From contig JAAYRF010000047.1 in assembly GCA_012518905.1 (NCBI GenBank), positions 1 to 38,942 of the forward strand: a stretch of DNA of 38,942 bases, in the 5' to 3' direction. A program made the translations under genes and the position numbers. Under the pieces are notes generated by a model. That model made no database searches, was not told where the DNA came from, and saw only the letters and a program-made list of their open reading frames with translations. This document shows, piece after piece, positions 2,678-32,198 of this stretch (position 1 is its first letter; every line of letters starts with the position of its first letter). The stretch comes from Bacillota bacterium. GTDB taxonomy: Bacteria; Bacillota; Limnochordia; DTU087.

Positions 2678-3976
<1,299 letters not shown>

Positions 3977-4028
3977 CTATGTTTCTGATATCTGAAGCCT
4001 TAGCGTAAGCAAGGCTCTAGGTTCTCAT

Positions 4029-5579
4029 TTACCTCTTGCTGCTTTCAATGAGTGATTGTCCCGTCATCTCCGGCGGCGTATCTAGATCCAATAGGTCTAA
4101 CACCGTCGGAGCCAAGTCAGCCAAGATGCCGTCCCGCACTTTTAGATCCTTTCCGTCGGTAATCAGTACAACCGGCACAGGATTTAGCGTATGGGCAGTA
4201 TGGGGTTCACCGGTCTCATAATCCACCATCTGTTCGGCATTGCCATGATCAGCTGTCAGAACAATATATCCGCCCTGGGCCACCATGGCCGACACCACCT
4301 CTTCCACGGCTCGATCAACCGCTTCTACCGCCTGTATGGCTGCTGGAAGAATGCCGGTATGGCCTACCATATCACAGTTGGCGAAATTCAATACAATAAG
4401 GTCATATTCTCCTCGGTTGATGGCTGCCACTGCCTCAGCTGCTACCTCCGGTGCGCTCATCTTTGGCTGAAGATCATAAGTGGCAACTTTAGGTGATGGG
4501 ATAAGCTTCCGGTCCTCTCCAGGGAAATTGTGCTCATCGCCGCCGTTGAAGAAAAACGTTACGTGGGCGTATTTTTCCGTCTCGGCTATGCGCAGTTGCC
4601 GCCAACCAGCTTTCCCCACTACCTCTCCTAAGGTGTTCTTAAGATCTTGAGGCGGAAAGGCGTAAGGAGCCACTATGGTCTCATCATAACGGGTCATACA
4701 GACAAAGGTGATCTCCGGCCATTGAGCCCGAGTAAAGGCAGTAAAGTGTTCGTCGGTAAAAGCCCTGGTGATCTGCCGAGCGCGATCGGCCCGGAAATTG
4801 AAGAAAATCACCGAATCACCATCTGCGATCATCCCCAGTGGTCGACCTGAATTATTAGCGACCACAGTAGGGATAACAAACTCGTCGGTCTCACCCCGGT
4901 CGTAAGCCATCTGTACTGCCTCGACACCGTTCGCTGCCAAAAAGCCCTCACCGAATACCATAGCTTTATAGGCTTTCTCAGTCCTCTCCCACCGCTTATC
5001 TCTATCCATGGCGTAGTAGCGTCCGGAAACCGTAGCTACCTGGCCTACGCCGATGCGCTCTATCTCCTTTTCTAAGTCCTGCATGTACTCCAAAGCACTT
5101 GCAGGTGGCACATCTCGCCCATCGAGAAAAGCATGAATGTACACCTGTCTAATACCCATCTCGACGGCCATCTCCAACAGAGCATAAAGATGGGAAGAAT
5201 GGCTATGCACTCCACCCGGAGATAGTAAGCCCATCAAGTGCAAAGCAGTTCCCTTGTCTCGGCAAGCGGTCATGGCTTTGACCAGCCACTCATTCGTATG
5301 GAAACTCTTTTCCCGCACCGCCTTACTAATTCGCGCGACATCCTGGTAGACAATGCGACCGGCACCGATGTTCAAATGCCCTACATTTGAATCACCCATC
5401 TGACCTTCCATCAGGCCTACTGCTTCACCAGAAGCCACCAAGCGTGCCGTAGGGTAGCTCATCCATAACTTGTCGAGGAATGGCGTATTGGCTAGTTTTA
5501 TCGCGTTAGCCTCTTGATTTTCATTGATCCCGAAACCATCTAAGATCAGCAGACAGACAGGGTGTTTTGCCCTTGCCAC
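4029..5579 (-). CDS. gpmI: 2,3-bisphosphoglycerate-independent phosphoglycerate mutase
   Basis: 516 aa; LLILDGFG, MEGQMGDSNVGHLNIGAGR, HAFLDGRDVPP, TADHGNAE. GTG start with SD AGGAGG 7 nt upstream. Confidence 0.98.
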   Translation of the reverse strand: MARAKHPVCLLILDGFGINENQEANAIKLANTPFLDKLWMSYPTARLVASGEAVGLMEGQMGDSNVGHLNIGAGRIVYQDVARISKAVREKSFHTNEWLVKAMTACRDKGTALHLMGLLSPGGVHSHSSHLYALLEMAVEMGIRQVYIHAFLDGRDVPPASALEYMQDLEKEIERIGVGQVATVSGRYYAMDRDKRWERTEKAYKAMVFGEGFLAANGVEAVQMAYDRGETDEFVIPTVVANNSGRPLGMIADGDSVIFFNFRADRARQITRAFTDEHFTAFTRAQWPEITFVCMTRYDETIVAPYAFPPQDLKNTLGEVVGKAGWRQLRIAETEKYAHVTFFFNGGDEHNFPGEDRKLIPSPKVATYDLQPKMSAPEVAAEAVAAINRGEYDLIVLNFANCDMVGHTGILPAAIQAVEAVDRAVEEVVSAMVAQGGYIVLTADHGNAEQMVDYETGEPHTAHTLNPVPVVLITDGKDLKVRDGILADLAPTVLDLLDLDTPPEMTGQSLIESSKR

Positions 5580-5612
5580 TAAGCATCCTCCTTTGCACCG
5601 GATTTCCTGGCT

Positions 5613-6368
5613 TCAATCGTCATAGCGTACAATCCGGGCAAATGACACTGCGTCAAGACTAGCTCCCCCGACCAAAGCCCCGTCAATCTCTGGTTGCCCC
5701 ATCAATTCCGCCATGTTGCCTGGTTTGACACTGCCACCATATTGAATCCGCATGGCTGCAGCGGTAGCATTACCATAGATCCCCGCCAACGTCTCACGTA
5801 TGACCTTGATGACCCGGTTGGCCTCCTCCGCCGTAGCCGTCTTGCCGGTTCCAATGGCCCACACAGGTTCATAGGCAACCACTATTTCCTTGGCGTAGCC
5901 TTCAGCAATCCCCTTAAAGCCCTGCTCGATCTGGCTTTTCACCAAGGATTCTGTGATGCCGGCCTCCCTTTGTTCTAAGGTTTCTCCTACACAAACTATG
6001 GGCAGCAGGCCGTGATCCAGCGCAGCCTGCATCTTTCTGTTTACCATTTCATCGGTCTCGCCGAAATACTGACGTCGCTCCGAATGGCCGATAATCACAT
6101 ACTTTACGCCTAAGGCCTTAAGCATTGGTGGTGCAACCTCACCAGTATAGGCACCACTTATCTCGTAGAAGACGTTCTGTGCGCCCAAGGAAAGCTTCGT
6201 TCCCCGAATGGCCTCCCCTACAGCAGGTAGTGCAGTAAAGGGGGGACAGAGAACTACTTCCCGGTCATCTAGTTTACCGAGGCGAGGGATCAGATCGCGA
6301 CACAAGGCAACGGCTTCCTCCGGCAATTTATGCATTTTCCAGTTACCTGCAATGATTGGAACTCTCAA
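5613..6368 (-). CDS. tpiA: Triosephosphate isomerase
   Basis: 251 aa; AGNWKMHK, VIIGHSERRQYFGE, VAYEPVWAIGTGKTAT. TTG start behind GGAGG. Confidence 0.98.
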   Translation of the reverse strand: MRVPIIAGNWKMHKLPEEAVALCRDLIPRLGKLDDREVVLCPPFTALPAVGEAIRGTKLSLGAQNVFYEISGAYTGEVAPPMLKALGVKYVIIGHSERRQYFGETDEMVNRKMQAALDHGLLPIVCVGETLEQREAGITESLVKSQIEQGFKGIAEGYAKEIVVAYEPVWAIGTGKTATAEEANRVIKVIRETLAGIYGNATAAAMRIQYGGSVKPGNMAELMGQPEIDGALVGGASLDAVSFARIVRYDD

Positions 6369-6386
6369 AACTCAATCGCCTCCGGT

Positions 6387-7571
6387 TTATCTATCGTTCA
6401 GAGCCTCAACTCCAGGCAATGCCTTTCCTTCGAGAAACTCCAAAGATGCCCCTCCGCCTGTGGACACATGGGTCATCTTGCTCGCCAAGTTAGCTTGTTC
6501 TACGGCGGCGGCGGAATCGCCTCCCCCGATAATAGTAATCGCATCGCTATTGGCCATGGCCTCTGCAATCGCGTTGGTACCCTTAGCAAAAGCCGGCATC
6601 TCGAAAACGCCCATGGGGCCATTCCAAACAACGGTCTTGGCTGTTTGGATTTCCCCTGCAAACAACTCTATAGTTCTTGGTCCAATATCCAATCCCTGCC
6701 ATCCGGCTCGCATCTTGTCAGCATCCACAACTTCGTGTTTAGCGTCAGCCGCGAAAGCATCGGCAATGACCACATCTACGGGCAGAAGGAATTTAACGCC
6801 CAGCTGTTTAGCCTCATCCATCAAATCCAGAGCCAGCTGAAGACTCTCGCTATCGAGCAATGAATTGCCGATCTCGTATCCTTGAGCCTTTAGGAATGTA
6901 TACGCCATTCCGCCCCCGATAACTAATGTATTGACCTTCTGCATGAGGTTGCTGATGACTCCGATTTTGTCTGCAACTTTAGCGCCTCCTAAAATAGCGA
7001 CAAAGGGGCGCTCGGGGTTCTGTAGGGCTTTACCCATAGTCTCGATTTCCTTCTGCAAAAGAAAGCCAGCTACTGCCGGCAAGTACTGCGCAATGCCGGC
7101 TGTGGACGCGTGAGCCCGGTGGGCTGCACCAAACGCGTCATTGACATATATGTCCGCCAGTGCCGCCAACCCCTTGGCGAACTCCGGATCGTTTTTCTCC
7201 TCCCCCGGATGGAAGCGCACATTTTCCAGAAGGAGAATGTCTCCATCTTGAAGAGCATCGGCAGCCTCCATGGGCTCAGCACCAATGCAGTCATCTACCT
7301 TTGTGATCTCTTGGCCGAGCAATTCAGCCAGCCTTTGAGCGACTGGATCGAGCCGATACTTTTCCCCAGGTCTACCTTTGGGCCTGCCTAGATGGGAAGC
7401 CAAGATCACCCTGGCACCTTGGTCAGCAAGATACTGGATTGTGGGCAAGGCTGCTCTAATGCGCTTGTCATCAGTTATGTTGCCCGCCTCATCCATGGGA
7501 ACATTAAAGTCCACCCGCACAAATACCCGTTTGCCCTTCACATTGATATCTTTCACCGTGCGTTTGTTCAT
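6387..7571 (-). CDS. pgk: Phosphoglycerate kinase
   Basis: 394 aa; [52 protein letters not shown]. Confidence 0.98.
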
Positions 7572-7622
7572 CCTAATCCCCCCGATCTAGTCTGCCTTGC
7601 ACTGAGTATCAAGCAGAAAATC

Positions 7623-7651
7623 CCCCGGCTGAACTCTCGGCCCAGCCGGGG
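7623..7651 (-). other. Intergenic hairpin between gap and pgk
   Basis: Perfect 9-bp stem CCCCGGCTG/CAGCCGGGG; a short ATTTTC follows on the minus strand. Confidence 0.65.
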
Positions 7652-7665
7652 TAGCGTTTATCGTC

Positions 7666-8706
<1,041 letters not shown>

Positions 8707-8723
8707 CTACTTTATGACAATAG

Positions 8724-8769
8724 CCCCTGGCACCTGCCTCTAGCAGTGCGAGGAAGGCCAAATCAGGGG
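8724..8769 (-). other. Intergenic stem-loop between cggR and gap
   Basis: CCCCTG/CAGGGG outer arms with an inner GCAC(C)TGC/GCAGTGC stem (plus-strand orientation). Confidence 0.55.
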
Positions 8770-8772
8770 TCC

Positions 8773-9882
8773 TTAAAAGCTCCCCCACACTCGGTTAGGC
8801 TCCTCAGCTCCCGCATCACTCCCCTCCAGGCTAGCCATCATCAGTCGGGCAGCACCTTCATCGGTGATGCAAACATGCTGGTAGCGATTGGACATGACAG
8901 CTAGGGCCGCTGCTGCCTTGCTGCGGCCTCCCCCTACAGCTACAACCTTACCGATATTGGGCAAATCTTCCATTCGTAAGCCAACACTGCTTGTGGTGTA
9001 GACAATGTCTCCGCTGTGATTGAAGTAATAACCGAAAGCCTCTCCCACGGCTTGCTTTTCCCGCAGAACACTGAGATCTTTTTCAGCCAATCCCCTGCGC
9101 TTAGCCATTTCCTCCGCTGTCCCGATACCGTGCAGGACCATATCCGTCTCTTTGATCAAATCTAGCATTTCCTTAATCTTTGGATCCCCACACAGGGAGG
9201 CAATTACATCTTCTCCCACATCGTCGGGAACATGCAACAGCCGATAGGTGCCGCCAAGTCGCTCTGCTATATTAGCCGCCACAGTATTGGCCTGTTTCTC
9301 TACCTCTTCACCGAGGCCTCCCCGGGCCGGCACCACCATCACTTCCCGTTTCTCACCGGAGGCAGGGAAACTCCTGGCCACTTCGGCTAAGGTAGTTCCA
9401 CCGGTTACAGCTAGAACGTCTCCATCCTTCAAAACAGCCTTCAGATACTTGGCCGTGGCTTTGGCCATCTCTTTCTTAACAGTCTCGTCTTCATCAGAAT
9501 CCCCGGGTACTATGATAACTTGCTGCAAACCCAAAAGACGGGCCAGGCGTCGCTCTAGATCCGACAAACCTCTGAGCTCTCGGACGTATTCCTTCAAATC
9601 ACCCAAAAGGCGCTCCCCGGCAGGAGTGACCTCCATTCCGGCAGGATTAGATATAAGCAACCCCTGCTCTCTTAAGAGCTCGATTTCATTGCGTACGGTA
9701 CGTTCCGGTAAGCGCAAACGGGCTGCCAAAGCCCGTCGGCCTACGGGCTGAACGAAATAGATGTTTCGTAGAATAATGTATCGCTTCTCCACAAGCTCGG
9801 CGATTTCCGGCGCAATTTTCCTTATGATCTCCAAGTTCACCATATAGAAGCGAGCAAGGCTCGCAGCCCCCCTGTGTTCCAT
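8773..9882 (-). CDS. cggR: Central glycolytic genes regulator CggR (SorC family)
   Basis: N-terminal wHTH (PVGRRALAARLRLPERTVRNEIELLREQGLL), C-terminal SorC sugar-binding domain; located directly upstream of gap. Likely start ATG at 9843 (MVNLEIIRK). Confidence 0.93.
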   Translation of the reverse strand: MEHRGAASLARFYMVNLEIIRKIAPEIAELVEKRYIILRNIYFVQPVGRRALAARLRLPERTVRNEIELLREQGLLISNPAGMEVTPAGERLLGDLKEYVRELRGLSDLERRLARLLGLQQVIIVPGDSDEDETVKKEMAKATAKYLKAVLKDGDVLAVTGGTTLAEVARSFPASGEKREVMVVPARGGLGEEVEKQANTVAANIAERLGGTYRLLHVPDDVGEDVIASLCGDPKIKEMLDLIKETDMVLHGIGTAEEMAKRRGLAEKDLSVLREKQAVGEAFGYYFNHSGDIVYTTSSVGLRMEDLPNIGKVVAVGGGRSKAAAALAVMSNRYQHVCITDEGAARLMMASLEGSDAGAEEPNRVWGSF

Positions 9883-16442: not shown

Positions 16443-17156
16443 GTGAAGGGATTAGGTGTCGAAGCAAAGTCCCCAGAGAGAAGCAAAGTCGCAACCGAAC
16501 TAACAGCTGGTATGGAGACGGCTAGCCCTCCTACCAGCGACTTGTGGATCGATGGCACCAGCGAAGAATGCCTGCCTGAACCTTCTACAGCTCTAACCAC
16601 CAAGGAGCTTCCCAGGGGCTATGGGGAAGATGTTGTTGTGCTCTTGGCTCGGGATCCTACCTGGCTGTTCGCGTACTGGGAGATCACCGCAGAGGGTTGG
16701 GCCAGGGTACGACAAGACCTGTCTGACGGGCAATGCTCTCCTACCTTGCGAGTCTATGACCTGGGGCCTCAGGGACAACAGCCAACGGGATTCTTCGATG
16801 TTGCCGTTCAACCCTTCGCCGATAGGTGGCACATTAACACAGGCAAAGTAGGCTGCAGATTCCGGGTGGATATCGGGATACGTACACCTACAGGGGATTT
16901 TCGTCCCATTGCTGCCTCTAACATTATCCAAATGCCAAGAGGAAGAATGAGCTCTGCCGTGGCCAACAAGTGGTTTAGAATCGAGGAATTCTGGCTCCCC
17001 ACTGCCGCCTTTCCCCCAGGCGGCAGCCCCATGGGTTGGCTCAAACAACGAAAGGCACAGTTATCGGAGCTAGAAGGATATCCCACCAGCCCCGGGATTT
17101 TTAGCCCCATGGGTTTCGGCAGTCAACCCAAGCAGCCACCCCAAGGCCCAATCTGA
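16443..17156 (+). CDS. DUF4912 domain-containing protein
   Basis: 237 aa; LPRGYGEDVVVLLARDPTWLFAYWEITAEGW is typical of DUF4912 proteins. GTG start behind GGAGGT. Confidence 0.85.
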   Translation: MKGLGVEAKSPERSKVATELTAGMETASPPTSDLWIDGTSEECLPEPSTALTTKELPRGYGEDVVVLLARDPTWLFAYWEITAEGWARVRQDLSDGQCSPTLRVYDLGPQGQQPTGFFDVAVQPFADRWHINTGKVGCRFRVDIGIRTPTGDFRPIAASNIIQMPRGRMSSAVANKWFRIEEFWLPTAAFPPGGSPMGWLKQRKAQLSELEGYPTSPGIFSPMGFGSQPKQPPQGPI

Positions 17157-17215
17157 TCGATAGCACAGGGCATAGAACCATTCTTGGAAAGGGAGTATAT
17201 TCCCAGGAAAGGAGT

Positions 17216-18859
17216 ATGGGCTTGCACCACAACTCTGGTTATGTCGCCATCGTTCTTCATGCCCATCTACCGTATGTAAGGCATCCGGAGACCACAAAAT
17301 GTCTGGAAGAACTCTGGCTGATGGAAGCCATCACTGAAACATATATTCCCCTACTCGAGATGCTGCAGGGCCTTTTGCGTGATGACATAGACTTTCGAAT
17401 CACCATGTCCATCACGCCTACGCTGGCTTCCATGCTGTCAGATGAATTCTTGCAGATGCGTTATGTGGGCCACGTCGATCAGCTCTTAGAACTGGCCGAA
17501 AAAGAAGTGAACAGGACCCGTTGGCAACCGAAACTTCAGGCCATTGCGCTAATGTACAGAAACCAGTTTCAAAGAGCTAGGCAAGTGTTCGATACCTATC
17601 ACCACCGTCTATTGGACGGTTTCAATGAGGTTGAAGCCACCGGCAAACTGGAAATCATGGCTTCTGCTGCTACCCATGGGTATCTGCCCCTGCTCTTTGT
17701 GGATAAGAAAGCCGTCGAGGCACAGATTGCCGTAGGGGTGGAAGCTTATCGCTATGCTTTCGGTAAAGACCCCGAGGGCTTTTGGCTCCCAGAATGTGGT
17801 TTTACACCCGGCATAGACGACATCCTGGCAGCTCATGGGATCCGTTACTTTCTTACTGATACCCACGGCATACTTCACGCTGAACCTCGTCCCGAAACCT
17901 CAGTCTATTCCCCCATCTATTCAGCGGCTAACGTAGCAGCTTTCGGCCGAGACTGGGAGTCATCCAAACAGGTTTGGAGTGCCACCGAAGGATATCCTGG
18001 CGATTACTGCTATAGAGATTTCTATCGTGATATTGGCTTTGATGCAGACTACCAATACATCAAGACTTATCTGGTCAACGGCATCAGGGGCTTTACTGGC
18101 ATCAAGTACCACAGGATAACCGGGCCTTCTGATCACAAGGAACTATATGATCCGGCTATGGCCCAGAAGAAAGCCGCTGAGCACGCCGGCAATTTTATGT
18201 TTAATCGAAAGTTACAGATCCAGTATCTGGCAACTCAGATGAACCGTCCACCCTTGATAGTTGCTCCCTATGATGCAGAGCTGTTTGGTCATTGGTGGTA
18301 TGAAGGCCCTCAGTGGCTAGATTACCTCTTACGTAAATGCGCTCATGATCAGAATACTTTCACCCTGATTACTCCCCGAGAGTACCTGGAGCGCCACCCT
18401 TCTGCACCGGTAGGCATGCCTTCCGAATCAAGCTGGGGTAATGGCGGATACCATGAAGTCTGGCTGGACGGGAGCAATGATTGGATTTATCGGCATCTTC
18501 ATAAAGCTGCCCAACGAATGGTAAAAATGGCCAATCAATATCAAAATGCCCAAGGGACTCTGGAAAGGGCTCTAAATCAAGCCGCTAGAGAATTGTTCCT
18601 GGCTCAAGCAAGTGATTGGGCCTTTATCATGAAGACCGGCACCTTAGTAGAATATGCCCGGCGTCGTACCCAAGACCATATTCTCAACTTCACTGAGCTC
18701 TTTGGGCAGATTACTGCCAATCATCTCGATGAAACTTGGTTAAATGGCTTGGAAGCAAGGCATAACATCTTCCCCTGGCTGGATTTTCGAGTTTTTGCCG
18801 GGGACTTGAAACAGCCTGCCACCAAGGCAAGCTGGCTCTCCAGAGCTGGCACCAGGTGA
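17216..18859 (+). CDS. GH57 family glycoside hydrolase / DUF1957-type (1,4-alpha-glucan branching enzyme-like)
   Basis: 547 aa; GYVAIVLHAHLPYVRHPE, GFWLPECGFTPGID, YDAELFGHWWYEGPQWLD, SSWGNGGYHEVWL. Confidence 0.9.
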   Translation: MGLHHNSGYVAIVLHAHLPYVRHPETTKCLEELWLMEAITETYIPLLEMLQGLLRDDIDFRITMSITPTLASMLSDEFLQMRYVGHVDQLLELAEKEVNRTRWQPKLQAIALMYRNQFQRARQVFDTYHHRLLDGFNEVEATGKLEIMASAATHGYLPLLFVDKKAVEAQIAVGVEAYRYAFGKDPEGFWLPECGFTPGIDDILAAHGIRYFLTDTHGILHAEPRPETSVYSPIYSAANVAAFGRDWESSKQVWSATEGYPGDYCYRDFYRDIGFDADYQYIKTYLVNGIRGFTGIKYHRITGPSDHKELYDPAMAQKKAAEHAGNFMFNRKLQIQYLATQMNRPPLIVAPYDAELFGHWWYEGPQWLDYLLRKCAHDQNTFTLITPREYLERHPSAPVGMPSESSWGNGGYHEVWLDGSNDWIYRHLHKAAQRMVKMANQYQNAQGTLERALNQAARELFLAQASDWAFIMKTGTLVEYARRRTQDHILNFTELFGQITANHLDETWLNGLEARHNIFPWLDFRVFAGDLKQPATKASWLSRAGTR

Positions 18860-18908
18860 CAATTGATCTTGGCCCCTTTTCCAAAGAAAACGTCTTCATC
18901 TTCGATTA

Positions 18909-21386
18909 CTATCGAAGCTGTCCCTCAATTTCACCCAAATATAGCTGAGCTAAGGAATCTGCTTCATCGTATGTTGGTGCTTCAGCATAGACCCTCACCA
19001 TCGGGTCTTCACCATCTGGCAAGACTAGAGCCCATCCCTGCTCATGATAGACCTTAATGCCATCGATCAAATCTCTGGGTCTATCTACAGTACTTGCCAA
19101 AAGGGTGTGCATAACCCTTCCCTTCTCCTGCCAAGTCACAGGTATATCCAGTTCTCTTCTTCCCTTTGCTGGAATGGAGGCCACTAGTTTTTCCAGGCTC
19201 ACTCCCTCCCGGGCCACCAAGCTCAGTAGTGCAGCAATGAAGGACAGAGCATCAAAGGCAGGGTGCAGCAAGGTCAGATCTCCCTCAGCTTGACCGTCAG
19301 CCCCCTGGAGAACAGCCCGGGGATTATTGGGAGTCCGTACAACCGGAAGATGGTATCTGGCCGCCAATTCCTCAACAGAGTGGGGTGCCGTCACCGGTAC
19401 CGCCATAACCTTACCAATATCTTTACCTCTAACAGCAAAAGCCCATGTGAGTAACGGCCAATACACATCCTCCGACAAGAGCTCACCTTCACCGCCAACT
19501 ACCAAGACAGTTCTTCCACTACCGCCAACCAGAAGGCCTAGAGCCGCCTCCTCTCGGAGTACCGTATCTATCACTTGACTCAGATAAGAGTCCTGCTGAA
19601 ACAAAGCTGTATTGGGGGCAACCCCTGGTTCTTTGTCGAAAGCGACATCAATAACTTGGCAGCCTAGCTCATCTAGCAGTGGTGGCAGCAAAAACCTCAG
19701 GGCCGGTGAGGTATAGCCAATCACCACCGATAGACGTTGGCCACCAAAAGAGGCTTTGCCGTACTGCTGGCAAAGAGCCTTCAGATAGGCTTGGTTGGCA
19801 CCAGCGGCAAATTGCGTTCTCCCAACCTCACCTCCCGGAACTCGGCGAAAATCTCCCCGGTAGAAGTAGTTCTCCAAAGCCCGTTCCTGATTGCGACTAA
19901 ATGGAAAGCCTTTCTCATCGAGGATCTCAACCTCGATTTGATCCGACATTTTCCGTCCTTGTTGGACATATACTCCTGCTTTGGTCTTTGTCAGTACCGT
20001 GGTAAAGCGGGTTACTGGCAGTGTAGTGGATCCGATATCAACTACATTAACTCCGCTTGACAAAACACCGGCGGTAAGCGCTCTCTTCACCATACGGGAT
20101 GGTTCCCAACCATCAGCTGCAACTAACACTGCTTGTCGTAGATCCAGCATTGCCCCTAGACTAGCCCCTACCCGAGCAGCAAATTCCGGGCTAATCTCCA
20201 CATTGGCAAGCCCCACTATGCCAGTGTTGCCAAATAGGCTGCTGGAGCAGGTTCCAGCCCATACTACATCTTCGGTAACAGTAGTGGACTTCTCAACCAG
20301 TTTCTGGGGCCAGATCTTAACACTGGGGCGAATTGTACTTGACATCCCCAAGATACTGCTTTGGCCAATAACAGCTCCTTCAAATATCCTGACCTTAGGT
20401 TTCACCACAGCCTGATTGCAGATTACCGTGCCCCTGACTTCTGCCCCATTGCCGATATGTACATTGTTCCAAACAATTGAACGCTTAATCGAACTCTGCT
20501 GACCTACCACACTATTGGACCCTATGATCGTATGGGGACCAACGACAGCCCCCCGCTCTACACGGCTGTTTCTTCCCAAGATGGCAGGAGGCCTAATTAC
20601 TGCATCTTGATGGATGAAGGCTCCTTCTTCCGTCCAGATACCCCCTTGATCTTGGCCCGAAAGCCGCGTCCGCACCTTTCCCTCCAACAGATCGATATGG
20701 GATTGTACATACTGTTCTAAATTTCCGATATCTGACCAGTAACCACTGGCCACATAGCCATAGAGGGGCTCACCACGTTGAAGCATGAGGGGAAAAAGGT
20801 CCTTGCTAAAATCGAATTGGCGCCCCGTTGGTATCAAGGATAGAGCCTCGGGCTCTAGTATATAGATGCCGGTATTAACTGTATCGCTGAAGACTTCTCC
20901 CCAACCAGGCTTTTCCAGGAAACGTTCTACCTGGCCAGCCTCGTTGATAAATACTAACCCATATTCTAATGGTGATGATACTCGGGTCAGGACTAAGGTA
21001 GCCAGCGAACCTTTCTCATGATGATAGGCTACCGCCCCCTCTAGATCCAAATCGGTTAGACTATCTCCCGAGATCACAAGACAGGTCCCATCTAGGAAAC
21101 TCCTCGCGTTTTTGACGCTACCGGCGGTACCTAGGGGCTGATCTTCCACGAAGTATTGCAGTCTAACGTTCCACGGAGCGCCATCCCTAAAGTGCTCTTC
21201 AATGATCTCTGGTATATAGCAGGTAGTTACAGCTATATCTTCTATCCCATTTAGAGCCAAAAGTTCAACGATGTATTCCATCATCGGGCGGTTAGCTACT
21301 GGCACCATGGGCTTGGGAAGATCACAAGTTAAAGGCCGAAGTCGACTTCCTTGTCCCCCCGCCATAATGACTGCCTTCATGATCAC
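18909..21386 (-). CDS. Sugar nucleotidyltransferase - left-handed beta-helix - phosphohexomutase-like fusion, mutase motifs degenerate
   Basis: 825 aa; N-terminal MKAVIMAGGQGSRLRPLTCDLPKPMVPVANRPMMEY, hexapeptide repeats in the middle, PMM/PGM-like C-terminal region. Start likely ATG at 21380. Confidence 0.88.
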   Translation of the reverse strand: MIMKAVIMAGGQGSRLRPLTCDLPKPMVPVANRPMMEYIVELLALNGIEDIAVTTCYIPEIIEEHFRDGAPWNVRLQYFVEDQPLGTAGSVKNARSFLDGTCLVISGDSLTDLDLEGAVAYHHEKGSLATLVLTRVSSPLEYGLVFINEAGQVERFLEKPGWGEVFSDTVNTGIYILEPEALSLIPTGRQFDFSKDLFPLMLQRGEPLYGYVASGYWSDIGNLEQYVQSHIDLLEGKVRTRLSGQDQGGIWTEEGAFIHQDAVIRPPAILGRNSRVERGAVVGPHTIIGSNSVVGQQSSIKRSIVWNNVHIGNGAEVRGTVICNQAVVKPKVRIFEGAVIGQSSILGMSSTIRPSVKIWPQKLVEKSTTVTEDVVWAGTCSSSLFGNTGIVGLANVEISPEFAARVGASLGAMLDLRQAVLVAADGWEPSRMVKRALTAGVLSSGVNVVDIGSTTLPVTRFTTVLTKTKAGVYVQQGRKMSDQIEVEILDEKGFPFSRNQERALENYFYRGDFRRVPGGEVGRTQFAAGANQAYLKALCQQYGKASFGGQRLSVVIGYTSPALRFLLPPLLDELGCQVIDVAFDKEPGVAPNTALFQQDSYLSQVIDTVLREEAALGLLVGGSGRTVLVVGGEGELLSEDVYWPLLTWAFAVRGKDIGKVMAVPVTAPHSVEELAARYHLPVVRTPNNPRAVLQGADGQAEGDLTLLHPAFDALSFIAALLSLVAREGVSLEKLVASIPAKGRRELDIPVTWQEKGRVMHTLLASTVDRPRDLIDGIKVYHEQGWALVLPDGEDPMVRVYAEAPTYDEADSLAQLYLGEIEGQLR

Positions 21387-22783
21387 ACCCCTCCCCTTTG
21401 ACTAGGGAAAGACTCCCGGGCATTGTCAAAGCCATGGGCGAAGGATGCTGTATCTTGATAGCGGGACAATGCACCTTGGGTTGTAAGCCGCGTTCCTCCT
21501 AGAATACCGTCAGCGGGGAAACTATCGGCCTCTCGCCACGGGCTCTCGGCAAACTCACTGAGTATCTCCTCATATACTGCCAGAGTCCTTTGGGCGATCA
21601 AAGACCAGCTGTACTCCTCCTTAACCATTTCAAGAGCACGTGTTTTGATGTACCTTGCGAATTCTGGTGCATCAAGGTACGCCAATATATTATCTGCCAG
21701 GGACTGGGCATTACCTGGATAGGCCCGAAGCCCGTTTTGGGCATGCTGTACTATCTCTGACAGTCCTCCTGTATCGGACACAACTACTGGTACTCCAGCA
21801 GCCATGGCCTCGAGCGCCACTATGCCAAAAGGTTCATATAAGCTGGGCACTACGGCCACATCAGCGCAGGCATACAGGCGGTTGCGGGTGAGATCGTCGA
21901 TAAACCCGGCAAAGTAAACGCTTTGGGCCACTCCGAGTCTCTGGGCCCGTTCTCTTAAGGCAAATTCCGCCGGACCTCTACCGGCAACAACGAACTTAAC
22001 CCGTTTGAATCTGGACAGGACTCGAGGAATTGTCTCAACAAGTGTATCAACGCCTTTTTCATGTACCAAACGACCTACAAAGAAAACAATGGCTTCACTA
22101 TCTGCTGCGTAGCGACGCCGAAAACCCCGACGATCAAAGGAGTCTTCAATGGAAAAATCCGATACATCTACACCATTGGGCAACACAGAGATCTTGTCTA
22201 TAGGTGTTTGGAAAATATACTGAATCTCGCCCCGCATGTACTGGCTACAACATATTACCTTCCAAGCTTCATATGTCAACCACCACTCTAGATTGCTGAT
22301 GTGGCGCTGCTGATCATTGTGGAGCCCGTGGTTGCGTCCAAATTCTGTAGCATGAATAGTGGCTACCAAGGGGCGCATAAGGCCGTGTTTCATCGTTTTG
22401 CCGGCATGTGCTGCTAACCAGTCATGCCCGTGGATGATATCAAAGGTGTGGCCTTGTCGGATCAGTCCCAAAGCAGCCTCTAACATGTGTACATTGAGAT
22501 GGGTAACAGATTCGATGAAATCCCGACCTTGAGGACCATACATCCTCAATCTGTGAACATGGACGCCTTCTACAACTTCCACCGAGGGAGTACCGTCTGC
22601 ATCACCAGTTAGTACATGCACCTCTTGACCCAGCTTAGCCAATTCCTCGGAGAGCTCGGCCACATGCCGACCCAATCCTCCAACAACTTGGGGAGGGTAC
22701 TCCCACGATAACATCAGAATCTTCACCGAACCGCCTCCCAGCTCTTTTCTTCTAGCTTTTCCCAGACCACCAATTCTATGCAA
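21383..22783 (-). CDS. GT4 family glycosyltransferase (glycogen-synthase-like)
   Basis: MLSWEYPPQVVGGLGRHVAEL, IIHGHDWLA, FVGRLVHEKGVDTL, VPSLYEPFGIVALEAMAAGVPVV. Likely GTG start at 22726 (VKILMLSWEYPP) behind GGGAGG. Confidence 0.9.
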   Translation of the reverse strand: MHRIGGLGKARRKELGGGSVKILMLSWEYPPQVVGGLGRHVAELSEELAKLGQEVHVLTGDADGTPSVEVVEGVHVHRLRMYGPQGRDFIESVTHLNVHMLEAALGLIRQGHTFDIIHGHDWLAAHAGKTMKHGLMRPLVATIHATEFGRNHGLHNDQQRHISNLEWWLTYEAWKVICCSQYMRGEIQYIFQTPIDKISVLPNGVDVSDFSIEDSFDRRGFRRRYAADSEAIVFFVGRLVHEKGVDTLVETIPRVLSRFKRVKFVVAGRGPAEFALRERAQRLGVAQSVYFAGFIDDLTRNRLYACADVAVVPSLYEPFGIVALEAMAAGVPVVVSDTGGLSEIVQHAQNGLRAYPGNAQSLADNILAYLDAPEFARYIKTRALEMVKEEYSWSLIAQRTLAVYEEILSEFAESPWREADSFPADGILGGTRLTTQGALSRYQDTASFAHGFDNARESFPSQRGGV

Positions 22784-22834
22784 TCGAAATAGAGTCTAGG
22801 GGCTTATGGCTTTTCGGTTATGTCTTGAGGAGGT

Positions 22835-23905
22835 TTAGATTCGCTGGAGCTCTTCTCCGGCGGCCCGCAGAAAGCTCACCAGCCTGCGGAAGTGCCGTCG
22901 GCTGCTTCGTTCGTGTTTAAGCCTTGCTATCATGTGTTGAGCAAAGATCAGTAGGCTAGCATCCACCGTCTGCGGTGTAAGGCTTGTCGACCAGCCTTCT
23001 GCAATCCAAGCGGAGTCTCGAAAGGCCTGGCGAACTACTACATGGGGCGCGAAAGCACGAGTATGCCAGAAAAGGTAGTATAGCAGATCAAAAAGGGGAG
23101 GTGCTTGGAAACACTGTTCACCCCAATCGATAACATAAAGAGATCCATCGTGGCGGATAACGTTGGGGTGCTTTAGATCTCCGTGTACCAGACCCTGCCG
23201 AATAGGCTGCCCGTTAAGAATGCTTGGCATCCCATCAAGACCCGCCTCCTTCAGCACATTGAGTAAGGTCTCGCATTTGCCCTCGAAACGTAATTCCAGT
23301 GGTTTGTCGAAGACTTGGGTATCGAAGACCAGGCCGAGATGGGGCCAAAGAACCCGTAAAGCTGCCAGACCCTCATCGAGGTCGTACAGGGGGATACACC
23401 GTCCATGCATGTATTGCTCTGTAAATATTAGGTTAGGCTCGTCCCATTCAAGAATAGCCGGGCTTATGGAGATCACAGCCGGCTGGCGGCGCACCCATAG
23501 TTCCTGGTGGAAAAGAGCTTTGGATGAAAGCTTCCGGGTCACCCTGGCCCGCTCAAAATCAAAGGCAATCCACTTTTCATTGTTTCCCATGAACACAACA
23601 TCCCAGTAGGTATCCGACAATATCGGGGCACTACCAACCGGCAGCAAGTGTCGCCAAATAGGACGCCGCAAAACTCCAAATAATCCTGCTTTGATCCTTC
23701 GTCCCAACCAGCTTCCTTCTGCCGCCAAAACGTTGGGGGCCATGCTGTCTACCACCTGTTGCCAGGCTATCTTCGAATCAGCTACATAAAAGTTGCCTAT
23801 GCCCCGCATTTGATACGACTTATCGACTGCCGTTACCTGATAGGTCACCATGGAATACACTCTCCACATCAGTAGACTAATCTCCTCACTAGTAGAGGAT
23901 CGCAT
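22835..23905 (-). CDS. APH/choline-kinase-fold phosphotransferase of unknown substrate
   Basis: 356 aa; catalytic-loop-like LVHGDLKHPNVIRHDG and metal-binding-like LYVIDWGEQCF. Likely start ATG at 23851 (MVTYQVTAVDKSYQ). Confidence 0.72.
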   Translation of the reverse strand: MRSSTSEEISLLMWRVYSMVTYQVTAVDKSYQMRGIGNFYVADSKIAWQQVVDSMAPNVLAAEGSWLGRRIKAGLFGVLRRPIWRHLLPVGSAPILSDTYWDVVFMGNNEKWIAFDFERARVTRKLSSKALFHQELWVRRQPAVISISPAILEWDEPNLIFTEQYMHGRCIPLYDLDEGLAALRVLWPHLGLVFDTQVFDKPLELRFEGKCETLLNVLKEAGLDGMPSILNGQPIRQGLVHGDLKHPNVIRHDGSLYVIDWGEQCFQAPPLFDLLYYLFWHTRAFAPHVVVRQAFRDSAWIAEGWSTSLTPQTVDASLLIFAQHMIARLKHERSSRRHFRRLVSFLRAAGEELQRI

Positions 23906-24008
23906 GTGGAGTCCTTAGCGTTCATGGTAAGCTTCTCCTGCCTCTGCCTTGCCATATCGTCCCTTTGCCTTACCATTAAGAAACCGGAAGTGAGTACACC
24001 TCCGGTTT
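23862..24008 (-). promoter_or_regulatory. Structured mRNA leader / intercistronic RNA element before the APH-like kinase
   Basis: Three successive stems on minus strand: AAACCGGAGGTG-TACT-CACTTCCGGTTT; ATGGTAAG...CTTACCAT; CTCCACAT...ATGTGGAG enclosing TCCTC-TACTAGT-GAGGA. Confidence 0.55.
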
Positions 24009-24046
24009 GCCCTGTATACATAGGAATGTTTGGGTTGTTTTCTTGA

Positions 24047-25012
24047 CTATTGGCCATAGCCCGGTGGCTCTTGTCGGAAGACTGTTATGAAGATTCCTCC
24101 TAGCAAGCACAGCACAGCTAAACTTGCTAACAAATGTCCCATGGTAAAAGGCAAAGATAGCCCGTGACTGACTGGGATAAGGACGGGATACTCTCCTTGG
24201 GCTAGATCCTTGGTCTCCAGTTGTGCTTTTTGGCTCCTCTTGCCACCTAGCCTAGGATCCAGTAGATCGATAACATTAGGCCCATCAGCCATCGTGGCCC
24301 CACCAAAGGACCACTGACTCGCCACCTCCTGAATAGCCCGATATTGATCGGGCCCAAAGGTGTCAAATCCGCCGACTAGCACATAGTATTGCCATTTTCG
24401 AGCAGGGATCCCGGCAATCTCCAGAGGCACCTCTCCCCGAATAGTCTTGTTATCGGGCAATAACAAGGCCTTGATGGGGTGGACTTTGGCTGGATCAGAG
24501 CGAGCGTCTAGCCAGCGGGAGCCGCCCCAAGGCTGTATCCGCAAGCGATACTCCCAGCCGGCCTCCGGCGAAAACATGATCCCCGGACCCGGTGCCACAG
24601 GTTTAAGGTGACCGCCGGGTTCACTATCAATATATACATCTATGAGCTGATGGAAGAACCCCTCTGGCGCCTTCCACGGGTTTGTGACCTTGGCAAAAGA
24701 AATGTCGAAATAGATATTTTCATTGTCATGCCAGATGTGGACTCGCCTTAGATCAAACAACCCTGGCTCAAATACATGGTGAAGTGGGTAGGTCACGGCA
24801 CCGGAGCCGTAATCATCGCCTAATCTGTCCTCCACGCTAAAGACTACCTGACTGGCAGCGACATTTTGTCCAGCAAATGGTAAAATCCAGACTAACATGA
24901 CGCCTACCATGGTCATAGCTGACCATATCTTCGTTCTCCGGGATAGGCCGCTGCGCATCCTACTCGATTTTGGCCACAGCCTCCTAGCCTTCCTTAGCGC
25001 TCTGTGCTGCAT
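24047..25012 (-). CDS. Membrane-anchored glucodextranase C-terminal / DOMON-like domain protein
   Basis: 321 aa; N-terminal signal/TM segment, FDLRRVHIWHDNENIYFDISFAKVTNPW...QLIDVYIDSEPGG typical of the glucodextranase-C family, C-terminal TM helix. SD GGGAGG 7 nt before ATG. Confidence 0.78.
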   Translation of the reverse strand: MQHRALRKARRLWPKSSRMRSGLSRRTKIWSAMTMVGVMLVWILPFAGQNVAASQVVFSVEDRLGDDYGSGAVTYPLHHVFEPGLFDLRRVHIWHDNENIYFDISFAKVTNPWKAPEGFFHQLIDVYIDSEPGGHLKPVAPGPGIMFSPEAGWEYRLRIQPWGGSRWLDARSDPAKVHPIKALLLPDNKTIRGEVPLEIAGIPARKWQYYVLVGGFDTFGPDQYRAIQEVASQWSFGGATMADGPNVIDLLDPRLGGKRSQKAQLETKDLAQGEYPVLIPVSHGLSLPFTMGHLLASLAVLCLLGGIFITVFRQEPPGYGQ

Positions 25013-29703: not shown

Positions 29704-31137
29704 CTACCATGGACTTATTCTCGGTAACCGCCGCTTCTCCTTCGCTTTTCGCTCCTTGCCAGCCTCCAGCTCTGCCCCTAGTGCCAAAGCCAGCCGCTCC
29801 GCCGTATCCGGGCCAGCTCTTCCCAGGATGACTTCGTCAAGAGCAGGTATCAATATCTCGCCAACCATGCGCCTGCGAACCTCGTGCCATTCCGCTGCCA
29901 AGGGGGGCAATCCCATCGACCGTTCCAGAACCTCTATTAGATTTTCGCTTTGACTAGCAGAGAGCCCCATTTCTTGCTGCCATTCATGAAATACACTTCT
30001 ACAAGCAGGGATTCCGTGATTATTTTTGCTAAGCTCTCGCCCTAGCTTCAGGCTGAGACTTCGAGCAAACTCCATGGAAAGGCGGGAATGGGCCAAACCT
30101 TGGAAGCGTCGATGACGAAATACTGATACGCTTACCATTGTGCCTCCAAGGTAGCCGTTTTCGCCGGTGCTGCCGGGAGGTGGTATGAGGACAATATCTT
30201 GCGGAATACTTAAAGATCGATATCCCCGCAACCGGGCGTTCTCACCCATGCCCCATATCCAAGGCCCCACCGGACCTATTGCCACCTTCCTACCTGACAC
30301 GAAATCAGTGAGTAAGGTACCCTGAACCATAGATAAGAGTTTCTCATCTTGCCATTTTTGCCAATCAGTGAGGACAGATTCGATTATCTGTTTGGTTAGC
30401 AAGAGCTCTCCCTTAGGGCCCACAACCCCTCCGCTCAGGGTGACAAGAAGCTGAAGGAGGGTATCTGAGTTCCCCATGGCATGGGCCATATAAGGCTGGC
30501 GGATTGGTTTAGCCTTATCTAGTCTATCCTTGAGCTCCTGCCAACCATACCCTTTCCAGGTAGCGGCATCGCCTAGTTGGTCGATAAGTACAGCCAAATC
30601 CAAGCCCAACCCCGCGAGCATCTTCTTGTTGGCAGCCCAGATCTGGGGCCGTATCTGGCACGGCCAAGCCATGTGATTCTCACCCACCGTTACATGGGCC
30701 AAAGCAGCGGGAAAGTAATTTGAACGTTCCTGCTCCGGCAAGAAGCGATCTATTGGCAGCTGCAGATCTGACCAAACTCGAAACCACTCAGCATTCTCTA
30801 CCAAGACATGGGGAGGTCGCCCCGCGGCTAGGGCCTTTTCCATTGCTTCATCCAAACTAGATGCTGGTACTACCTCAAAGGATATCTCTATATTGGGATA
30901 GAGACTATGAAAAGCTGTTGTCACATCTGACCAAAACTCAGACTCCAAAGGCGGGGGCTGGCACAGACCACCATCATTCTCCACCCAGATTTCCAGGGAA
31001 TATGTGGTTTGGCCATCGATTTTGGCATAGGGATCTAAAGTCAACTGAGGGTGCTGAACCCTCCACCACCAACCACCTATAGCGGCAAGAACGATGATTA
31101 CCCCAGCCAGAAGGAGTGCAAGCCTGCGGTTTTTCAC
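29704..31137 (-). CDS. Extracellular solute-binding (family 1)-like protein with N-terminal TM anchor
   Basis: 477 aa; N-terminal TM without lipobox cysteine; SDVTTAFHSLYPNIEISFEVVPAS and later FVSGRKVAIGPVGPWIWG resemble ABC sugar-binding proteins. Its ATG overlaps the upstream stop by 4 bp. Confidence 0.7.
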   Translation of the reverse strand: MKNRRLALLLAGVIIVLAAIGGWWWRVQHPQLTLDPYAKIDGQTTYSLEIWVENDGGLCQPPPLESEFWSDVTTAFHSLYPNIEISFEVVPASSLDEAMEKALAAGRPPHVLVENAEWFRVWSDLQLPIDRFLPEQERSNYFPAALAHVTVGENHMAWPCQIRPQIWAANKKMLAGLGLDLAVLIDQLGDAATWKGYGWQELKDRLDKAKPIRQPYMAHAMGNSDTLLQLLVTLSGGVVGPKGELLLTKQIIESVLTDWQKWQDEKLLSMVQGTLLTDFVSGRKVAIGPVGPWIWGMGENARLRGYRSLSIPQDIVLIPPPGSTGENGYLGGTMVSVSVFRHRRFQGLAHSRLSMEFARSLSLKLGRELSKNNHGIPACRSVFHEWQQEMGLSASQSENLIEVLERSMGLPPLAAEWHEVRRRMVGEILIPALDEVILGRAGPDTAERLALALGAELEAGKERKAKEKRRLPRISPW

Positions 31138-32198
31138 TGTCTCACCCCCAAGAGTAGATACACATCGGGCCAGCCTATGCCATCGGCCATGAGACCATAT
31201 GCCTTTTGGAGCTGTTTTACAGCCTCTGCCGTCTGCTCTCCGTATCTGCCATCGGCAAGTCCACAGTCACAACCCTGCTCCCTTAAGGCAAACTGTAGAG
31301 CAACCACATCTTGACCACTGCTACCTTGCTCCAACTGCCTAGCAACCCCGCCAGGGGAGCGACCCACCATGCGGACTATAGTACCTTCAGGTATAATTCG
31401 AAACACCTGCTCCACATGGCGATTAAACATGCGTATACATCCGCCGCTGGCCATGGTGCCTATAGACCAGGGTTTATTAGTACCATGGATCCCGTAGATG
31501 CCCCAGGGCACGTTCAGACCTAGCCAGCGGCTACCAAACCCTCCGCCCCAATTCATACTCTTGTGGGCGATGCGAAACTCACCGATGGGACTTGGCGTCT
31601 TGGCCATACCCACTGCTACGGGGAACTTCTGGTATTCCTTACCTTCTATGTGGATTGTCAGCAGACGCCGGCTTACATCGATGACTATCTCCCGCTCACC
31701 GTCGGGTACCGGCTGGGCACCTTCGATAACAGGCACAGGAAAATCATTGGCTAGCGCCTGCCACGTCATGGGGCCCACTACCCCGTCGTGGCTAAGTCCC
31801 TTCTGGCGTTGCAAGCCTTGCACTGCTGCCATTGTCAAACGGTCAAATCGACCTGAAATAGCTCCTCCGTATAGATTCAGGCACTTAAGACCCCTTTGTA
31901 GTTCGGCAACATCCTCACCTTCCATCAAAGGGTCTGCGAGATACAGAAGTCGGTCTGATTCGCATTGAGCATGCTCGAGTCGGCCCATTTTGGATTCATC
32001 CTCCGCGGCCATTAGTCCAGAGCCAGCCGGTGGAACATAAATATCCATCAAAGAGTCGATTCCAGCACTAGCAGTCCAAACACACCACCAAAATACCGCC
32101 AACAAAAACAGCGTGCAAATGGTGGCCCCTACTAACGGCAGAGACTGTCTCCAACGCGGCCTCTTATCTTTTAACATTGTCCAATCCCTTCCCGTCAT
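31134..32198 (-). CDS. L,D-transpeptidase (YkuD) flanked by two peptidoglycan-binding domains
   Basis: N-terminal TM; PG_binding_1-like repeat (GEDVAELQRGLKCLNLYGG...), YkuD motifs GIHGTNKPWSIGTMASGGCIRM, second PG_binding_1-like repeat (GQDVVALQFALREQGCDCG...). Likely start ATG at 32177. Confidence 0.92.
   Translation of the reverse strand: MTGRDWTMLKDKRPRWRQSLPLVGATICTLFLLAVFWWCVWTASAGIDSLMDIYVPPAGSGLMAAEDESKMGRLEHAQCESDRLLYLADPLMEGEDVAELQRGLKCLNLYGGAISGRFDRLTMAAVQGLQRQKGLSHDGVVGPMTWQALANDFPVPVIEGAQPVPDGEREIVIDVSRRLLTIHIEGKEYQKFPVAVGMAKTPSPIGEFRIAHKSMNWGGGFGSRWLGLNVPWGIYGIHGTNKPWSIGTMASGGCIRMFNRHVEQVFRIIPEGTIVRMVGRSPGGVARQLEQGSSGQDVVALQFALREQGCDCGLADGRYGEQTAEAVKQLQKAYGLMADGIGWPDVYLLLGVRQ

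Follow-up and report, generated by a model that had tools for sequence, protein, structure and literature searches.

The contig JAAYRF010000047.1 of a Bacillota bacterium (NCBI GenBank assembly GCA_012518905.1; class Limnochordia, DTU087), analyzed here as a single window of 38,942 nucleotides, carries between positions 16443 and 25012 a compact cluster of six neighboring genes, four of which probably form an intracellular system for building a branched, glycogen-like alpha-1,4/1,6-glucan. On the plus strand, this four-gene core encodes a DUF4912 protein of 237 residues (16443..17156; Pfam PF16258, 6e-28) and a GH57 glycogen branching enzyme of the short-loop Thermotoga maritima AmyC type (17216..18859; PF03065, 2e-37, and PF09210 or BE_C, 2e-39). 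Converging on this pair across a 49-base gap are two minus-strand genes whose frames overlap by 4 bases at the end of the first and the start of the second: a GT4 glycosyltransferase, the proposed alpha-1,4-glucan synthase (21383..22783; PF13439 and PF00534, 1.5e-42), and a fusion, hereafter FUS, of a sugar-1-phosphate nucleotidyltransferase, a left-handed beta-helix and a degenerate phosphohexomutase or pseudo-mutase (18909..21386; NTP_transferase, LbH_EIF2B and PGM_PMM_I/II). All six open reading frames were verified at their positions and strands and each assignment is backed by Pfam, in full agreement with the gene and domain content given in an initial annotation of this DNA. In the mechanism we propose, the nucleotidyltransferase half of FUS would convert glucose-1-phosphate to a nucleoside diphosphate (NDP)-glucose, GT4 would use this donor to extend an alpha-1,4 chain by glucose units, with acceptor, linkage and donor nucleotide all presumptive, and GH57 would add alpha-1,6 branches. 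DUF4912 may act as a non-catalytic beta-sandwich accessory, probably tethering glucan or enzyme, and the mutase half of FUS, apparently no longer catalytic, would probably have a structural role or a regulatory one in which it senses sugar phosphates.

A GTDB genome scan with GT4 as the query recovered 262 relatives, the best 80 of which were retrieved with their flanks, and because these loci were selected on GT4 similarity, the counts drawn from them are not natural frequencies: FUS directly follows GT4 in 64 of 76 loci, a convergent GH57 gene follows in 36 of the 45 whose downstream sequence extends for 6.5 kb or more, and the DUF4912 gene has a same-strand GH57 neighbor in 41 of 42 cases. 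The conserved arrangement, GT4 then FUS converging on the DUF4912-GH57 pair, is more than chance and spans Limnochordia, Desulfotomaculia, and Thermincola and its relatives, with hosts that include Desulfovirgula, Desulfofundulus, Pelotomaculum, Carboxydocella, Thermincola, Thermacetogenium and Limnochordales. Furthermore, a survey of 73 genomes of the window's class, related to one another and in some cases incomplete, reveals near-perfect co-occurrence of DUF4912 and the GH57-associated BE_C domain (both in 38 genomes, each alone in one, neither in 33; Fisher p = 2e-18, a value that overstates independence because the genomes are related). Moorella retains GT4, but with adjoining GT5 and GalT-like genes; at L118:7247-9827, and also at L102 and L105, two genes are oriented divergently from GT4, one GalT-like (of the galactose-1-phosphate uridylyltransferase family) and one GT5-like.

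The alpha-glucan role of the cluster, which the initial annotation had inferred, is well supported by genome context because of gene fusions, starch-binding modules and the nature of recurrent neighbors. In one locus of family f3 (L130:1930-4740), GH57 and BE_C domains are followed by GT4 within a single 937-residue polypeptide free of internal stops, and two further genera present GH57 and GT4 matches in one frame (946 and 880 residues; G012 and G014), so that GH57 and GT4 share a reading frame in three genera in total. CBM53 starch-binding modules are encoded by 21 of the 27 small genes that adjoin GT4 in other genomes. A locus of family f8 (L134) carries a same-strand run of five genes, GT4-FUS-DUF4912-GH57-GT35 phosphorylase, and family f9 (L125 and L135), which is without the GH57 branching enzyme and DUF4912, has the order GT4-FUS-GT35; at other loci, GT4 neighbors include an amylo-alpha-1,6-glucosidase (GH133-type debranching enzyme), a GH15 glucoamylase and GH57 amylases. 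The GT35-type phosphorylases adjoining GT4-FUS are short, at about 550-570 residues (L125:5794-7449, L135:7207-8862, L134:11014-12723).

These same observations bear on the possibility that GT4-FUS makes a surface or cell-envelope polysaccharide, with GH57, the glucodextranase-C protein encoded further upstream and the products of the peptidoglycan-related neighbors alr, glmM and nagAB serving envelope glycan turnover. Exopolysaccharide pathways commonly include a GT4 paired with an NDP-sugar synthase, the nucleotidyltransferase half of FUS resembles both guanosine diphosphate (GDP)-mannose and uridine diphosphate (UDP)-glucose enzymes, and in this class the block lies between flanks that contain nagAB, alr and glmM. 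The GH57-GT4 fusion, CBM53, GT35 and debranching neighbors nevertheless indicate an alpha-1,4-glucan, the core is devoid of polymerase, flippase or export genes, and the envelope neighbors are lost in Desulfotomaculia while the core is retained, all of which makes an envelope product unlikely.

The chain-elongating enzyme of the branched-glucan model would be GT4, which carries GT-B fold domains and an E-X7-E motif, as in retaining glycosyltransferases. The motif glutamates E317 and E325 and the donor-site-region residues R238 and K243 are invariant in 81 homologues, and the nearest structures in the PDB are GlgM (6tvp, 3e-31 over the whole protein) followed by archaeal GlgA. The most likely mechanism would be that of a polymerizing synthase, and the earlier idea of a GT4 enzyme in place of a GT5 synthase is supported. 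Comparable gene sets come from archaea: the parts of a 2024 review that bear on GT4 proteins leave open their function as glycogen synthases, a question raised there for archaea, and flag as candidates the archaeal GT4 genes found with GH57 or GH133 in Picrophilus and Methanoculleus (PMC11046441). By those descriptions, the clusters share with ours the association of GT4 with GH57 amylase genes, and Methanoculleus is without GT3 and GT5; they differ in being archaeal and in that neither FUS nor DUF4912 features in the passages concerned (PMC11046441).

The nucleotidyltransferase half of FUS retains the signature GGxGxRLxPLT...KPM and the catalytic aspartate. Its nearest solved structure is the UTP-glucose-1-phosphate uridylyltransferase 8x7s (E = 8e-61), ahead of GDP-mannose enzymes; 8x7s is a non-GalU UDP-glucose pyrophosphorylase, probably of the cyanobacterial CugP type, and compared with this best match, FUS adds the degenerate phosphohexomutase. 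A GlgC identity was rejected at 129 versus 425 bits, far under the glgC cut-off, and the earlier description of a non-GlgC nucleotidyltransferase is supported. The C-terminal half remains recognizable as a phosphohexomutase (9du5, E = 8e-34) when aligned with archaeal mutases, and yet the phosphoserine loop SHNP, the metal loop DGDxDR and the sugar loop GEXSGH are absent in all 54 of 54 aligned Bacillota homologues, with GlmM from the same window serving as the intact control. Four full-length fusions from other phyla are equally degenerate: two on Streptomyces plasmids, one in Nonomuraea and one in Sulfuricurvum (L145:5004-7502, L146:4001-6505, L147:4001-6502, L148:4004-6541). The mutase half thus looks catalytically dead and, as judged from sequence, FUS is an old and widespread nucleotidyltransferase-pseudo-mutase rather than the working bifunctional enzyme initially envisaged, because the mutase motifs are lost in every homologue examined. 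For the same reason, reading such fusions as bifunctional guanylyltransferase/phosphomannomutases would be misleading; our literature searches on nucleotidyltransferase-mutase fusions returned nothing relevant. The genome encodes other, stand-alone mutases, among them GlmM and a 493-residue frame on contig C60, one of which could supply glucose-1-phosphate.

Several points weigh against the assignment of the core to glucan synthesis. In Streptomyces and Sulfuricurvum (three annotated records), the same fusion lies at a distance from glucan genes, so FUS is not glycogen-specific. Neither is it obligatory: several Limnochordia loci (L127, L128, L131 and L132; the L128 relative is a nucleotidyltransferase half of 432 residues) have either no FUS or one that lacks the mutase half. 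GT4 itself falls below the NCBIfam glgA_Coryne (TIGR02149) cut-off, at 176 versus 302 bits, and the literature we searched holds no biochemistry for it. GlgM, its nearest characterized relative, makes maltose-1-phosphate and not a polymer, and the relevant passages of the review equate GT4 'GlgA' proteins with GlgM where GlgE is also present (PMC11046441). Together with 6tvp being the closest solved structure and the shared GT4 fold, this would fit a GlgM-type maltose-1-phosphate synthase, known from actinobacteria, feeding a maltosyltransferase (the GlgE route) or another maltosyl acceptor. The GlgE N-domain PF11896 was, however, detected in 0 of 73 class genomes with a positive Corynebacterium control, which argues against a GlgM-GlgE route, and the similarity to GlgM is distant when set against about 46-78% identity within the GT4 clade, so that we consider a maltose-1-phosphate product improbable. 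Lastly, the conserved synteny also takes in nnr, alr, nagA and nagB, whose functions have no evident connection to the rest, and the wider nnr-alr-...-nagA-nagB order is kept in Limnochordia, as expected if adjacency reflected conserved chromosomal order and no shared function. Such an origin is hardly credible given that GT4-FUS and GH57-DUF4912 stay together in orders without the wider synteny, and occur in convergent orientation, as a same-strand operon and as gene fusions.

For the branching step of the proposed glucan pathway, the cluster GH57 aligns over its full length with T. maritima AmyC (PDB 2b5d, E = 5e-156), its nearest relative, which is experimentally a glycogen-branching enzyme (PMC6616209). 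It combines the GH57 and BE_C domains of the AmyC group with all three catalytic residues, H15, E193 and D353 corresponding to the polarizing histidine H10, the nucleophile E185 and the acid/base D349 of AmyC and being invariant in 44 homologues. The alignment is ungapped through the short catalytic loop, where the archaeal chain 5wu7 carries inserted residues, and the long loop with tip tyrosine that characterizes 'true' high-activity branching enzymes is absent from the aligned cluster protein; the short loop is the majority type among such enzymes, the long one marking high activity (PMC10346327). The cluster enzyme thus shares both catalytic residues and loop type with AmyC (PMC6616209); here it is encoded beside DUF4912 and convergent with GT4. 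AmyC-type short-loop GH57 enzymes can show up to 30% hydrolytic activity (PMC6616209) and the GT35, GH15 and GH133-type neighbors are degradative, both of which would suit a maltodextrin-remodeling or degradation module with GH57 as an amylase and GT4 in an unrelated role. The NDP-sugar synthase, a GT4 with an intact retaining-glycosyltransferase motif and the GH57-GT4 fusion all imply synthesis instead, leaving a degradative module very unlikely.

Residues about 61-165 of the DUF4912 protein form a fibronectin-III-like beta-sandwich in the AlphaFold model (predicted local distance difference test score of about 95 over the domain), for which Foldseek returns generic FN3 domains at E about 1e-4; a sequence search of the PDB yielded no relatives (best E = 0.47). 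Many homologues have an N-terminal hydrophobic segment, and a few carry a weak, sub-threshold glucodextranase-B-like tail. DUF4912, on whose function we found no literature, is now tied to a GH57 branching enzyme; searches for GH57 with Moorella and for glycogen with Pelotomaculum likewise returned nothing relevant.

The cluster had been described as lacking canonical glgC, glgA and glgB. This is true of the window segment, since open reading frames and Pfam reveal no glgC, GT5 glgA or GH13 glgB within 16443-25012, but not of the genome (98% complete), which holds a glgC split between contigs C146 and C22 of G000, followed by glgD, a GT5 glgA, a pullulanase-type debrancher gene and the start of a GH13 glgB. 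Contamination is an unlikely source of this operon because the same order is present in relatives (for example, G010:C29). The GT4 core thus coexists with a canonical glycogen operon, and the two systems are not linked, because glgC and GT5 are both missing in 21 of the 37 class genomes with a full core. These 21 include genomes at 96-100% completeness and all five of the neighboring genus g2, and the figure is unaffected by G006, whose glgC fragment at a contig end was left out of the count; in them, the searches used reveal no candidate for an NDP-glucose-dependent glucan synthase other than GT4. The refutation test set with the initial annotation had a mixed outcome, with a strong core signal on the one hand and a canonical operon elsewhere in the genome on the other. 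Compared with glgBCAP (GlgC, GT5 GlgA, GH13 GlgB and GT35 GlgP), the core follows the same logic of an NDP-glucose maker, an elongating glycosyltransferase and a branching enzyme, to which loci in some relatives add a GT35 phosphorylase, but uses GT4 for GT5, GH57 for GH13 GlgB and a non-GlgC nucleotidyltransferase with a pseudo-mutase for GlgC.

The remaining two genes of the cluster are more loosely attached, and of the six-gene unit initially put forward it is the GT4, FUS, DUF4912 and GH57 core that recurs. The APH/choline-kinase-fold small-molecule kinase (22835..23905, minus strand; PF01636, 2e-7), located between the glucodextranase-C gene and GT4, occurs in just 5 of the 12 genomes from the order and is absent from the family genomes G007-G010, where the core is intact; it is a lineage-specific insertion. 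It has the HxDxxxxN catalytic loop and metal-binding aspartate of APH/choline-kinase-like proteins, its HGDLKHxN (HGDLKHPN in the window) and IDWG motifs are invariant in 5 homologues, and its moderate-confidence model retrieves many different small-molecule kinases in Foldseek, among them LicA (choline kinase), CcrZ and AmiN, with phmmer against the PDB giving only E = 0.07. At L043:8569-9729, a gene for an iron-containing alcohol dehydrogenase (387 residues) is inserted on the opposite strand between kinase and GT4, and open reading frames of the same length occupy this position in L042, L045 and L048. The glucodextranase-C module protein (24047..25012, minus strand; PF09985 or Glucodextran_C, 5e-53; glucodextranase 1ug9 in the PDB, 2e-9) has an N-terminal hydrophobic signal and a C-terminal hydrophobic segment. 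Its gene lies behind nnr-alr in the window and also in family f9 without GT4 nearby, so that its membership in the unit is not supported, GT4 and FUS being elsewhere in such genomes, and its association with nnr-alr is no weaker than that with the glucan genes. It is also found beside an amylo-alpha-1,6-glucosidase gene in L057 and L059 (same contig as L136), L061 and L068 having genes of similar size, and given these opposing associations its link to the glucan core is possible. In G061, the vicinity of the glucodextranase-C gene holds a ROK-family gene and one for an ADP-dependent phosphofructokinase/glucokinase (L152:3985-7903).

The cluster is flanked by housekeeping genes, with nagA, nagB, yvcK and rapZ on one side (the latter two identified by reading the open reading frames) and alr, nnr, acpS and glmM on the other. 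Promoter and terminator scans of the cluster gave nothing above chance level, and PADLOC returned no matches, so a defense role was dropped. Elsewhere in the window are a minus-strand glycolytic block at 2678-9882, including enolase, triosephosphate isomerase and a CggR-type regulator, and an L,D-transpeptidase (YkuD) gene with two peptidoglycan-binding stretches at 31134-32198, adjoining one for an extracellular solute-binding protein at 29704-31137. Two further sets of candidates were discarded: a 780-residue gene preceding GT4 in many loci, a phosphorylase by size, proved in the one case scanned to encode a ComEC-type competence protein, and genes that separate GT4 from GH57 in some loci (uroporphyrinogen decarboxylase-like, histidine kinase) are unrelated.

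The best reading of the cluster is a variant of bacterial glycogen synthesis, a GT4-based, second non-classical toolkit. More tentatively, it could represent a distinct bacterial glycogen route, in which a GT4 polymerizing synthase, probably UDP-glucose-dependent, would operate with GH57 and a pyrophosphorylase whose dead phosphohexomutase serves as a sugar-phosphate sensor. With its gene fusion, starch-binding neighbors and genomes without GlgC or GT5, the system offers a bacterial test case for GT4 as a glycogen synthase; its conserved core extends through many anaerobic Bacillota and is the sole glycogen-making system visible in 21 of the surveyed genomes.

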